Positions 47,765 through 51,293 of a stretch of 64,000 nucleotides of DNA are shown here, piece after piece. The position numbers were made by a program, and so were the translations under genes. Source of the DNA: Flavobacterium sp. 20NA77.7 (lineage in GTDB: Bacteria; Bacteroidota; Bacteroidia; Flavobacteriales; Flavobacteriaceae); the NCBI RefSeq assembly GCF_031326205.1, contig NZ_CP133721.1, positions 496,001 through 560,000 on the forward strand. Direction: 5' to 3'. Under the pieces are notes generated by a model. That model was not told where the DNA came from, made no database searches, and worked only from the letters and a program-made list of their open reading frames with translations. Within the stretch, counting starts at the first letter, position 1; each line of letters starts with the position of its first letter.

Positions 47765-47772
47765 TATTTTTG
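47765..47772 (+). promoter_or_regulatory. -7 box of the CxxxC membrane protein
   Basis: TATTTTTG fits TAnnTTTG and ends only 4 bp before the GTG start at 47777, which would give a leaderless or nearly leaderless mRNA. No upstream TTG at the ideal distance. Confidence 0.4.
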
Positions 47773-47776
47773 TCAT

Positions 47777-48166
47777 GTGAAATATTTTATTATCATAATT
47801 GCTTTATCATTTATAACAAAACCGCTAATTCCATTAGTTGATTATGTTATTAATCATGAGTATATAGCTACTGAATTGTGTGAAAATATTGCAAAACCAG
47901 AAATGCATTGTGATGGAAAATGCCATCTTAAAAAAGAATTAGCTAAAGCTGCTTCTGATGAAAAACCAATTTCCAATCAAAAATCTTCCATATCAAAACA
48001 AGAAGTAGAGCTATTATTTTGTCAGTTTGTAGATGCAATTTATTTCCGAACTTTATTTTCCACATTAAAAAATAAAATTTCAGACAGGTATCAAAATTTA
48101 TACTTCCATAACTCAATTGATACTGTTTTTCACCCACCAACTATTTTAAATTTTTTGAAACAATAA
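47777..48166 (+). CDS. Small membrane protein with HCDGKCHL motif
   Basis: This 129-residue protein starts at a GTG (47777); no later Met fits the N-terminal hydrophobic segment. That segment (about 3-24: YFIIIIALSFITKPLIPLVD) is a signal or anchor. C35 and the motif M43-H-C-D-G-K-C49-H-L, with C45 and C49 spaced by three residues and flanked by His, look like a thiol or metal site. The C-terminal half is helical and His/Tyr/Phe-rich. It lies upstream of an MbnP-family gene, so a copper-related or redox role is inferred. I know no named domain for it. Confidence 0.7.
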   Translation: MKYFIIIIALSFITKPLIPLVDYVINHEYIATELCENIAKPEMHCDGKCHLKKELAKAASDEKPISNQKSSISKQEVELLFCQFVDAIYFRTLFSTLKNKISDRYQNLYFHNSIDTVFHPPTILNFLKQ

Positions 48167-48387
48167 GCCGTCTTTCATGATGGCTAATGCTTTGTGTTTC
48201 TAGATAATAAAATGTTCCTCTATTTAGCAATAGCTTTAGATGAGGCACATGTATTGTTATACAAAGTAGTTATGGTATTGTAAGTTACTATTACTTATTG
48301 CATTTATGTATTTTTTGCAATTTGAAAGAATAGTTATGACTAAAACATACGATAAAAAATAATTCAATTAATTTAAATTTATTAAAA

Positions 48388-49185
48388 ATGATATTAAAAC
48401 ATATAAAATTTGCGGTAGTAGCATGTGCCTCATTATTCATCTTTTCTTGTTCTAAAGATGATGCAGAGGGAATTACGGGGCAAGGTAATTTAAAAGTAGA
48501 ATTTGATAATATTTATGGAGGAGCAGATATTTTGCCTACTGCTACTTATACAAACAGTAATGGTGAAGTAATAAAAATAACTAGAGCACAATATATTGTA
48601 AGCAATATAGTGTTGATAAGAGAAGATGGTTCTACTTATACAGTGCCAAAAAGCCAAAGTTATTTCATTATTAATGAATTAACCGCTTCAAGTTTACTAC
48701 TTAATTTGCCAAATATTCCAGCAGGAAATTATAACAAAATTAAATTTGGTATTGGTGTAGACCAAGAACAATTTAATCTTGGCGCAACAGGTCAAGGCGA
48801 TTTTTTAGCTCAAGCTCAAAACGAAGGTATGATGTGGTCATGGAGTGCAGGGTATAAATTTGTTGCATTTGAAGGTAAATTTACCTCATCAACCGTCACT
48901 TCTGAAACGACCTTTATGGTGCATACCGGAAAAACAGGAACAGATTATAATTATACAGAAGTTACTTTGAATTTTCCTGATTTAGCAAAAGTAAGAACAA
49001 CTATTACGCCACAAGTTCACATTATGGCCGATTTAAAGCATATTCTTGATGGCACTAACAAAGTTAGCCTAACAGAAAGTAACGCAATGGGAATGGGAGC
49101 CATGATTATGAGTGGTACAAAATTACCCTTAATTACGGGAAATTTGGTTAATATGTTTAGTGTGCATCATGTACATAATGATTAA
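48388..49185 (+). CDS. MbnP-family copper-associated lipoprotein
   Basis: This 265-residue protein has a lipoprotein signal (HIKFAVVACASLFIFSCSKD, C21). The rest matches the MbnP family: GNLKVEFDNIYGG, ITRAQYIVSNIVLIREDG, PAGNYNKIKFGIGVD, the W150-S-W152 motif of MMWSWSAGYKFVAFEG, FMVHTG and a His-rich end (FSVHHVHND). MbnP proteins bind copper after their partner di-heme enzyme MbnH oxidises a Trp to kynurenine. A MauG-like di-heme gene is 87 bp downstream. No methanobactin genes are seen. Function here is inferred from family and context. Confidence 0.85.
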   Translation: MILKHIKFAVVACASLFIFSCSKDDAEGITGQGNLKVEFDNIYGGADILPTATYTNSNGEVIKITRAQYIVSNIVLIREDGSTYTVPKSQSYFIINELTASSLLLNLPNIPAGNYNKIKFGIGVDQEQFNLGATGQGDFLAQAQNEGMMWSWSAGYKFVAFEGKFTSSTVTSETTFMVHTGKTGTDYNYTEVTLNFPDLAKVRTTITPQVHIMADLKHILDGTNKVSLTESNAMGMGAMIMSGTKLPLITGNLVNMFSVHHVHND

Positions 49186-49194
49186 TTTCTAAAG

Positions 49195-49256
49195 CTATTC
49201 CTGCCATTCACTTTAAGTCCTCAGTCTTATAGAGGCTTTCTGTTACTGCCAGGGCT
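49195..49256. repeat. Remnant of a flavobacterial intergenic repeat
   Basis: AGCTATTCCTGCCATTCACT at the left and TACTGCCAGGGCTATA at the right enclose a short core. The right end matches that of the element at 34745-34802 (CAGGGCTATA). Confidence 0.5.
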
Positions 49257-49272
49257 ATAATAATTTACAAAA

Positions 49273-50319
49273 ATGATAAAAAATATTAGTTATCTTTTAG
49301 TTTGTGCGCTGCTACTTAGTTGTGCGTCAGATTATGATGATGCAGAACAGTATCAAAATATACCCATAGATTTTCAAGTGCCCAGTAATTTTCCACCTTT
49401 GCAATATGATTTAGCAAATAACCCACTTACAGAAAAAGGGTTTGAATTGGGAAAAAAACTATTCTATGATGGTCGATTAGCCTCCGATGGTGTAGTTTCA
49501 TGCGGATTCTGTCATATTCAAGCTGATGCTTTCACACATCATGGACATAGTGTAAGTCATGGTGTAGGCGATAATATGGGCACAAGAAATACGCCTCCTA
49601 TTCAAAATTTGGCTTTTCAAAATATATTCATGTGGGACGGAGCAGCAGATCATTTAGATTTACAACCTATAATTCCATTTACCAGTCCAATAGAAATGAA
49701 TGGTAATTTCTCAAACGCCATTGCAATGATGAAAACAGATCCTGTTTATGTCAAATTATATAAACAAGCTTTTGCAGACGGTCAAATCAATACAGAAAAT
49801 ATGCTAAAAGCATTAGGTCAGTTTATGGTGTTAACAGTCTCTTCTAATTCTAGATTTGATAAATATAGAAGAAATGAGCCAGGAGGAATTTTGACAAACG
49901 ATGAATTACAAGGATATGCTCTTTTTAACCAAAAATGTGCTACTTGTCACGCCACAGATTTATTTACAGACAATTCGTTTAGAAATAACGGATTGCCTAT
50001 AAATCCAAATGTAAATGATGTTGGAAGATATCGTGTAACAGAGCAAGTTCAGGATAGGTATAAGTTTAAAGTGCCAAGTTTACGAAATGTTGAAAAAACA
50101 GCGCCTTATATGCATGATGGTAGGTTTTATACTTTGGAAGCTGTTTTAGACCATTATTCAAATGGAGTGCAAAACACACAAAATCTCGATCCGATATTGA
50201 ATACTAATTCAACATTAGGTATTTCTTTGACTCAAACTGAAAAAAATAAACTCATAGCATTTCTTAAGACTTTAACAGATAATCAATTTTTAACAAATCC
50301 TCGATTTGCAGAATATTAA
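49273..50319 (+). CDS. Di-heme cytochrome c peroxidase / MauG-MbnH-like lipoprotein
   Basis: This 348-residue protein has a lipoprotein signal (MIKNISYLLVCALLLSCASD, C17) and two haem-binding motifs, C77GFCH81 and C222ATCH226. Family marks are LGKKLFYDGRLASDG, NTPPIQNLAFQNIFMWDGA, KVPSLRNVEKTAPYMHDGRF and a late TLEAVLDHYSNG. This is the CcpA/MauG family. Directly after an MbnP gene it most likely is the MbnH-type enzyme that modifies MbnP, but a plain peroxidase cannot be excluded. It should work in the periplasm at the outer or inner membrane leaflet. It is 11 bp upstream of the next gene. Confidence 0.88.
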   Translation: MIKNISYLLVCALLLSCASDYDDAEQYQNIPIDFQVPSNFPPLQYDLANNPLTEKGFELGKKLFYDGRLASDGVVSCGFCHIQADAFTHHGHSVSHGVGDNMGTRNTPPIQNLAFQNIFMWDGAADHLDLQPIIPFTSPIEMNGNFSNAIAMMKTDPVYVKLYKQAFADGQINTENMLKALGQFMVLTVSSNSRFDKYRRNEPGGILTNDELQGYALFNQKCATCHATDLFTDNSFRNNGLPINPNVNDVGRYRVTEQVQDRYKFKVPSLRNVEKTAPYMHDGRFYTLEAVLDHYSNGVQNTQNLDPILNTNSTLGISLTQTEKNKLIAFLKTLTDNQFLTNPRFAEY

Positions 50320-50330
50320 AAACACATTAG

Positions 50331-51293
50331 ATGAAAACTATTTTACTTGCTTGTTTTATTTTTTTAAACGTTCAAGCGCATGAAAAACCAAAACAGCTAA
50401 CAAAAAAAATAATTAATTATGAAAAGAAAGATTTTAAATTCAATTATCTTGACTATTGCGACGCTTGTGGGTGTTCTGCAAATGGCGGAAGCATGGGATT
50501 TGGTTCTGTTGTAAGTGCTAATTTTTTTGGCGTTAGATATATTAATCAAAATTACGAAACAAATGATGGTTTATATACTAATTCACCTTGGTTAAAAGAA
50601 AAATTTAATACATACCAACTTTGGTCTAAAATACCTATCAACAAAAAAATTCAGCTTTCAACACTTATTCCTTATCATGCGCATAGAAAAGAAGTAGCTA
50701 CAGGTCAAAATTCTATAAAAGGGCTCGGAGACATTACCGTAATGGGATTTTATACATTGTGGAATAAAAAGAAAGATTCCATAGGTTTATCACAAACTAT
50801 ACAAGTAGGAGCAGGATTAAAAATGCCCACAGGGACTTTTGATGAAACTACGGCAGGTACAGTAAATCCAAGTTTTCAATTAGGAACAGGTAGTTGGGAT
50901 TACCTGTTTTCTACAGAATATGTCATAAAAAAACATGGTTTTGGATGGAGTAATTTACTAAATTATGTTATTAAGTCTACGAATGCGAATGCATATCGCT
51001 TTGGAAATCAACTAAATTATAATTCAACATGCTATTATCTTTTTGAAAAAGATAAAATGATAATAGCGCCACAAATAGGCTTAGCCGGAGAAGTTTATGC
51101 AAGTAATTATAAGCACCAAGAAAAAATCCGTAATACAAGTGGAGATGTGCTTTTTACCAAGCTTGGCGCTGAAATAGCTTACAAAGAATTTTCTGTTGGC
51201 GCTTTTTTTCAAACGCCTTTGCACCAACATTTAATGTCAGATTTAGTGAAAGCAAAAAACAGGTTGAGTATAAGCTTTAATTATAAATTATAA
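50331..51293 (+). CDS. Cysteine-rich predicted outer-membrane barrel of the MbnP locus
   Basis: This 320-residue protein has a signal peptide (MKTILLACFIFLNVQA). Close after it is a striking motif C43-D-A-C-G-C48-SANGGSMGFG. The remainder alternates aromatic and polar residues in strands (SKIPINKKIQLSTLIPYHAH, QVGAGLKMPTGTFDE, FGWSNLLNYVIKSTNANAYR) and ends in a barrel-like NRLSISFNYKL. Such proteins are often labelled transporter family or outer-membrane. It follows the di-heme gene by 11 bp and precedes a terminator, so it is the last gene of the MbnP operon. A role in metal passage across the outer membrane is inferred. Confidence 0.75.
   Translation: MKTILLACFIFLNVQAHEKPKQLTKKIINYEKKDFKFNYLDYCDACGCSANGGSMGFGSVVSANFFGVRYINQNYETNDGLYTNSPWLKEKFNTYQLWSKIPINKKIQLSTLIPYHAHRKEVATGQNSIKGLGDITVMGFYTLWNKKKDSIGLSQTIQVGAGLKMPTGTFDETTAGTVNPSFQLGTGSWDYLFSTEYVIKKHGFGWSNLLNYVIKSTNANAYRFGNQLNYNSTCYYLFEKDKMIIAPQIGLAGEVYASNYKHQEKIRNTSGDVLFTKLGAEIAYKEFSVGAFFQTPLHQHLMSDLVKAKNRLSISFNYKL

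Follow-up and report, generated by a model that had tools for sequence, protein, structure and literature searches.

Positions 47,777 to 51,293 of a 64,000-nucleotide (nt) stretch of the Flavobacterium sp. 20NA77.7 genome (contig NZ_CP133721.1, positions 496,001 to 560,000; referred to as the window) encode a small cysteine-motif protein, an MbnP-family lipoprotein, an MbnH/MauG-like di-heme protein and an outer-membrane barrel. This arrangement raises the question of what the first of these genes does for the other three. All four predicted open reading frames (ORFs) were present on the plus strand as first described by a sequence-only reading, which had taken both cysteine-motif proteins, the small one and the barrel, for candidate parts of an MbnP/MbnH copper path. 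We consider it rather probable that the four genes form a copper-acquisition operon under the control of its own first gene. Judged from sequence, the first gene is likely best read as a copper-sensing leader and not as a transport part, and the operon as a whole likely serves to capture copper through MbnP/MbnH and a channel of its own.

47777..48166, plus strand: small protein, candidate copper-sensing leader (upstream ORF); GTG start, 129 amino acids, N-terminus hydrophobic by eye
47909..47923, plus strand: C-D-G-K-C motif (C45, C49) of the small protein; both cysteines kept by all of 28 diverse homologues
48128..48139, plus strand: F-H-P-P of the small protein, candidate ribosome-stalling motif; Pro-Pro placed C-terminally across homologues
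48388..49185, plus strand: MbnP-family lipoprotein, 265 amino acids; C-S-K-D-D after the lipobox, W150-S-W152, C-terminal HHVHND
49273..50319, plus strand: MbnH/MauG-like di-heme protein, probably a lipoprotein, 348 amino acids; CxxCH motifs CGFCH and CATCH
50331..51293, plus strand: 12-stranded outer-membrane channel with N-terminal CDACGCSANGGSMGFG, 320 amino acids

The small protein as a candidate leader

The small protein matched no Pfam family, and in open-licence full texts we found no description of its family or of the RNA that follows its gene. Its landmarks are HCDGKCHL (residues 44-51), C35, the C45-x3-C49 pair and FHPP (residues 118-121). The 28 diverse homologues, which are 22-42% identical to it, share just seven invariant residues (C35, N37, C45, G47, C49, P120 and P121); the sequence varies in the central part, and the length and terminal Pro-Pro are nearly fixed. 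All 123 copies that were compared (46 from a genus-level family search and 77 from named loci) had the CxxxC motif plus a third cysteine. Pro-Pro fell within the last 15 residues in 122 copies, compared to 10 of 1,684 other ORFs, and within the last 16 residues in all 123, compared to 11. The residue preceding Pro-Pro was His in 80 copies, Arg in 17 and Lys in 14 (111 in all), Phe stood at position -2 in 95, and just 2-4 residues followed Pro-Pro in 114. The spacing from CxxxC to Pro-Pro was 68.7 residues (standard deviation, 1.8); C49 and P120 of the window protein are 71 residues apart. Because the profile used for collecting the copies spans the C-terminus, the Pro-Pro test was redone with a profile restricted to the N-terminal half. 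It was run on 40 loci belonging to other orders and classes; these had been gathered by full-length search, and in 20 of them the full-length match ended before the C-terminus. Pro-Pro was present in the last 16 residues of 37/39 hits, compared to 48 of 1,013 others, and in 18/19 hits for which the full-length match had ended short of the C-terminus. The CxxxC-to-Pro-Pro spacing in this distant set was 62-73 residues, with a single exception of 36. The ribosome tunnel and the translocon together span roughly 60-70 residues, so that the CxxxC motif would just reach the periplasm as the ribosome meets Pro-Pro.

At window positions 47765-47777, 4 nt ahead of the GTG start, lies TATTTTTG, which we take to resemble the Bacteroidota promoter element TAnnTTTG; the leader mRNA might therefore be nearly leaderless.

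Of 247 Bacteroidota genomes sampled, 89 carried the leader gene, which was found in several contexts: ahead of MbnP, MbnH and the CDxCGC barrel; ahead of a lipoprotein and a TonB receptor followed by MbnP and MbnH; ahead of a TonB receptor and a lipoprotein alone; ahead of a DGHAPI barrel; and ahead of a TonB receptor and a PepSY_TM protein. Pfam support for the receptors of the second and third contexts was modest: a TonB barrel or Plug domain scored above cut-off in L300, L301 and L303 (loci are given by our own labels), Plug was below cut-off in L087, and L305 came out just below. The next called ORF lay on the same strand as the leader gene in all 123 copies and in 34/39 of the distant set; among 120 upstream neighbors, 64 were on the opposite strand and 21 on the same strand more than 100 nt away. 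The idea that the HCDGKC protein belongs to the MbnP/MbnH copper path was not supported, since its gene also precedes other barrels and TonB receptor operons across Bacteroidota. A protein that is not MbnP/MbnH specific and has leader-like features fits a cis-acting leader rather than a path component.

A small lipoprotein containing Met and His (HDxxMPKM, MMDWM) recurs near leaders (L111, 10425-10844; L069, 4621-5058) and sits between two leader copies in L066 and L069. A lipoprotein also follows the leader in L300-L305 and L311; in L300 it resembles YtkA, at a score slightly short of the cut-off. Of six such lipoproteins, two (L300 and L311) begin with MKFQLKN, an N-terminus shared with several MbnP rows, which hints that leader, RNA and signal peptide may have been copied together.

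Two known leaders offer a comparison. CruR of Bordetella (bp2923, DUF2946) is an exported protein that heads a TonB receptor/PepSY_TM operon; its CxxC perceives copper, reportedly in the cytoplasm, and relieves an arrest at a C-terminal RAPP, and Roy et al. (2022) reported that operons beginning with a CruR homologue can include MbnPH-like genes (PMC9426467). The CruR arrest was later demonstrated in vitro (PMC12992588). CutF of Rhodobacter capsulatus combines a CxxxC motif, an export signal, a proline-rich end and a stem-loop, and the Bacteroidota share of CutF-like proteins was given as 19%, or 40% after normalizing (PMC9973294). Like CruR, the small gene stands first in a probable metal-uptake operon, is followed by a long gap and encodes a possibly exported protein with a Cys pair and, at conserved spacing, a Pro-Pro a few residues ahead of the stop. 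Unlike in CruR, where the residue numbers of the paper put CxxC about 48 residues ahead of Pro-Pro in RAPP, CxxxC lies about 70 residues before Pro-Pro, and the RNA after the gene is different. The small protein shares with CutF the CxxxC, the C-terminal proline motif and a hairpin ahead of the next gene; unlike the leader of an uptake operon, CutF acts with copper to switch on an oxidase. With 129 amino acids (<150), Pro-Pro at 120-121 (last 15) and a same-strand gene 221 nt away (<1000), the window protein falls within the size, Pro-Pro and gene-distance filters for CutF-like proteins of PMC9973294, and its family may already be contained, unnamed, in that list. The leader mechanism is known in kind from CruR and CutF, and we read the small gene as a leader because its hydrophobic N-terminus, its CxxxC, its terminal Pro-Pro at near-fixed spacing and, in some relatives, its RNA resemble them.

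RNA structure after the candidate leader gene

The gap between leader and MbnP measures 221 nt in the window and contains two predicted hairpins.

48166..48185, plus strand: 7-bp RNA hairpin beginning on the last base of the leader stop codon; -11.2 kcal/mol, z -4.87
48188..48268, plus strand: extended RNA hairpin with imperfect pairing, within the leader-MbnP gap; occurs once in the genome

A 130-nt stretch of this gap folds unusually well (z -4.17; 0/200 shuffles were as stable). The 7-bp hairpin was listed as terminator-like, the number of such sites being no higher than expected by chance. An intrinsic terminator was rejected for the leader gap, as just 11/123 gaps look so, and a repetitive element was rejected because the window gap is present in a single copy in the genome.

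Three hairpins could be aligned in 22 gaps of Flavobacterium and its relatives, chosen by eye from 90. In this alignment, 88% of cells pair, and 17/23 pairs show two-sided changes; 74 cells carry such changes, compared to 23.7 (standard deviation, 5.5) after shuffling and at most 17 when slid. A choice of rows by eye favors structure, and searches with a covariance model therefore weigh more. The model was run on 56 of the remaining 58 named loci and gave 11 matches at E ≤1, 5 of them at ≤0.001. All 11 lay between leader and MbnP (L175 shows the leader tail alone), and 3 overlapped the MbnP ORF as called; its start codon was probably over-called. The 60 family-search loci together with the window yielded just four matches, all weak, and the leader-MbnP gap held two of these. 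In 56 short loci, 15 matches were obtained, 12 of them after the small gene. Sixteen loci were refetched with longer flanks: for 6 of the 12, the RNA had the leader on one side and a lipoprotein/TonB receptor pair on the other, and MbnP was not called there (best match, 67.3 bits, E 1.5e-8; weakest, E 0.39), and the other 10/16 gave no RNA match. Some RNA-bearing genomes may be of the same species as the named ones. As the RNA also follows leaders of TonB receptor operons, it travels with the leader rather than with MbnP. The first hairpin begins 9-16 nt past the leader stop codon (median, 13; n = 16), roughly where the footprint of a terminating ribosome would end.

A search of the window region and five loci against Rfam 15 revealed no known RNA family in the leader gap; the matches were to Flavo-1 elsewhere or below the gathering cut-off. 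One of them lies in the following gap.

49193..49260, minus strand: Flavo-1-like RNA element in the MbnP-MbnH gap; 39.3 bits compared to a cut-off of 42, E 4e-6

Flavo-1-like RNA (RF01705), again below the gathering cut-off, was antisense to the genes just past MbnP in three of six sources (the window; L142, 4689-4830; L159, 4696-4838).

The small protein might instead be a stable membrane-anchored copper chaperone or relay between an outer-membrane port and periplasmic or inner-membrane acceptors, whose service to several uptake systems would account for its many contexts. An N-terminal hydrophobic segment, CxxxC with a third cysteine and steady linkage to transporters suit this role, and CutF was itself at first conjectured to be a chaperone (PMC9426467). 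We nevertheless regard it as unlikely: a chaperone needs neither a near-fixed length and terminal Pro-Pro around a variable middle, with Pro-Pro so close to the end in nearly all copies, nor the structured RNA found after the gene in some relatives.

MbnP, MbnH, the barrel and their gene order

The sequence-only reading had claimed an MbnP/MbnH pair, which Pfam bore out: the window MbnP scored 154 bits with MbnP PF20243 (cut-off, 27) and has the MbnP fold, and the window MbnH scored 167 bits with CCP_MauG PF03150 (cut-off, 25.6). The closest solved chain to MbnH was 6e1c (E 8.5e-42), which we take to be MbnH of Methylosinus, with the cytochrome c peroxidase 4aal almost level (3.2e-41). The pair thus resembles Methylosinus MbnP/MbnH (7l6g, 6e1c) in the MbnP fold, the WxW and the closest solved relative of MbnH; it differs in the absence of the four-Cys motif, in the C-terminal HxHN and in the added barrel and leader. 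As the earlier reading had stated, no methanobactin gene occurs among the four, a result that holds for the cassette, since the whole genome was not searched for methanobactin genes. The MbnP family is present once in the genome, a single contig of 2.33 Mb. W150 and W152 were invariant in 22 MbnP rows. MbnP proteins paired with the small gene kept WxWxxG both with the barrel (18/18) and without it (5/5), and 17/18 of the barrel-bearing pairs ended in [HD]H[VI]HN. For 18 MbnP proteins labelled as lacking the small gene, one of which (L085) does have a small-gene match, WxWxxG was present in 7 and the terminal HxHN motif in none. The two heme-copper oxidase genes of the genome encode possible users of the captured copper.

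A second kind of MbnP/MbnH pair, without a leader, adjoins suf genes in 15 loci (L076-L078, L081, L082, L088, L089 and L091-L098); the suf neighbors were confirmed in L076 as SufB/D-like, ABC ATPase and SufA-like proteins. These loci also adjoin an LVIVD-repeat protein sorted by the type IX secretion system, and 11/15 of their MbnP proteins lack WxWxxG.

The barrel is a 12-strand channel of the COG4313/FapF type with a CDxCGC N-terminus. It scored 33.5 bits with Phenol_MetA_deg PF13557 (cut-off, 22), and both this profile and the 12-strand barrel place it in the PF13557/COG4313 family. Its motifs are CDACGCS (residues 43-49) and GGSMGFG (residues 52-58); the conserved CDxCGCxAxGGSMGF N-terminus and the operon partners distinguish it from the COG4313 channel (4rl8) and FapF (5o65). 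All 18 barrels adjoining MbnP retained CDxCxC, which supports the earlier reading of a conserved cysteine-motif barrel. In three distant Bacteroidota loci (L265, L284 and L299), the gene immediately after the leader encodes a protein that begins with a CDFC, CDSC or CDICGC segment and is possibly a barrel relative.

The gene order, proposed earlier as a check across genomes and one whose lack of conservation would have refuted the sequence-only reading, was conserved in two surveys. The first covered 120 Flavobacteriaceae genomes, one per genus, in which MbnP was matched in 57, the small protein in 71 and the barrel profile strongly (at least 170 bits) in 19. The order small gene-MbnP-MbnH-barrel was found in 17/17 untruncated loci of other genera in addition to the window; in one of them (L066), a 78-amino-acid opposite-strand ORF was called between the cassette genes, and an 18th locus (G015) was cut by a contig end. 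Flanking genes were common to 7/17 loci and the cut locus, and for most others no shared flank was seen; thus, the four-gene cassette is kept in varied surroundings. The second survey used the best 80 of 394 confirmed barrel relatives from named genomes, by record title 60 Flavobacterium and 20 of higher rank (e.g., Flavobacteriaceae, Bacteroidetes bacterium); the source names of close MbnP relatives were likewise mostly Flavobacterium. The exact order was called in 60/80 loci, 11 more had an extra, duplicated or intervening ORF, and in L150 the small gene was concealed under a longer opposite-strand ORF, giving 72/80; six loci were cut by contig ends. Since these 80 loci were chosen via the barrel, the frequency of solitary barrels is not readable from them. 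The ORF caller conceals genes in this way (the small gene was missed in L150 and L085), and an absence in its calls therefore counts weakly. A hemL-like gene upstream of the window cassette was also present in 14/80 named loci.

Proposed mechanism and its weighing

In the mechanism that we propose, MbnH would act on W150 or W152 of MbnP, oxidizing this Trp towards kynurenine. Copper would be bound, probably at the cell surface, by the modified MbnP with the help of conserved His residues, among them those of the C-terminal HxH. The 12-strand CDxCGC barrel would serve as a channel admitting copper to the periplasm. The small HCDGKC protein would act as a cis-acting copper sensor during its own translation and export: CxxxC (plus C35) would emerge about 70 residues ahead of the terminal F-H-P-P, the putative site of a ribosome pause, and copper binding would alter this pause. 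The structured RNA past the leader stop would then turn the presence or absence of the pause into a level of downstream gene expression, which would be low in copper excess, as for CruR. The sequences themselves show the gene order, the families and folds, the invariant motifs with their near-fixed spacing, the link to several transport operons and, in some relatives, a covarying RNA. Copper as the ligand, the stalling, the direction of regulation, the surface location, the Trp oxidation and the direction of import are all what we infer here. We give about an even chance to the broader view that nascent copper-sensing leaders with F-[HRK]-P-P arrest and CxxxC about 70 residues upstream occur Bacteroidota-wide, in MbnP/MbnH and TonB operons alike, with the three-hairpin RNA in Flavobacterium and close relatives.

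The same genes could also provide a copper or redox defense at the surface, with MbnH as a peroxidase, MbnP as a copper sponge, the barrel as an exporter and a leader that induces in copper excess. MbnH does lie within the di-heme peroxidase superfamily, and CutF turns on its operon (CutO) with copper (PMC9973294). Such a function appears improbable to us, as no multicopper oxidase, RND pump or P-type ATPase was found among the four genes (the neighbors are partly annotated), paralogous leaders precede TonB receptors, which import, and copper lowers two analogous pairs of methanotrophs, MopE/SACCP and CorA/CorB, although according to the same source MbnP shows no marked similarity to these (PMC3621798). 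A further reading, in which iron or another metal is what the leader and barrel handle and MbnP/MbnH have a different substrate, is more doubtful still: the literature yielded no copper data on these proteins, and one leader context combines a TonB receptor with a PepSY_TM protein, a type that in Pseudomonas reduces a ferric siderophore (PMC12914433), but MbnP family membership, the WxW, the conserved His residues and the copper control of the cruR-TonB receptor-PepSY_TM operon in Bordetella (PMC9426467, PMC12914433) speak for copper.

Several observations weigh against a copper-acquisition operon controlled by its leader. A same-strand ORF lies at most 100 nt upstream of 35/120 leader genes, so that those 35 are at most candidate operon heads; start codons may be over-called. 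DUF2946 (PF11162) was matched neither by 28 members of the small-protein family nor in any of the 120 Flavobacteriaceae genomes. The terminal motif is mostly F-[HRK]-PP, FHPP in the window, and not RAPP as in CruR, and when others tested RAPP-like sequences from E. coli and B. subtilis, most of them did not cause efficient stalling (PMC10987492). As regards the RNA, besides the choice of alignment rows by eye, the covariance model left 45/56 other named loci without a match and did not find the element in the window gap, where the window has other hairpins; 3/15 short-locus matches (two distinct places, since L214 = L234), all weak, lay at the MbnP stop. The idea that the leader gap is more structured than others was rejected, the mean z being -2.56 after leader stops (46 stretches) and MbnP stops (45 stretches) alike with a home-made shuffle. 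With NCBIfam models, the window MbnP scored 49 bits with TIGR04052, under the equivalog cut-off of 140, and is thus filed in the Pfam family and not as a TIGR04052 equivalog; the window MbnH scored 229 bits with TIGR04039, under the cut-off of 363. In two of the 80 named loci (L184, 5072-6843; L189, 5154-6960), the barrel directly follows MbnP and MbnH was not found within the locus; there MbnP must manage without a neighboring MbnH, which slightly lowers our confidence.

If the leader reading is true, one easily recognized gene would flag candidate copper-uptake operons in more than a third of the Bacteroidota genomes sampled here and would indicate which barrels and TonB receptors merit copper tests. 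A 2025 survey describes RAPP/RGPP leaders of copper factors as missing from some groups such as Bacteroidota and TonB-class leaders as found across Gram-negatives generally (PMC12992588); a different terminal motif would help to close this Bacteroidota gap. It would also back a role of MbnP/MbnH in copper uptake outside methanobactin.

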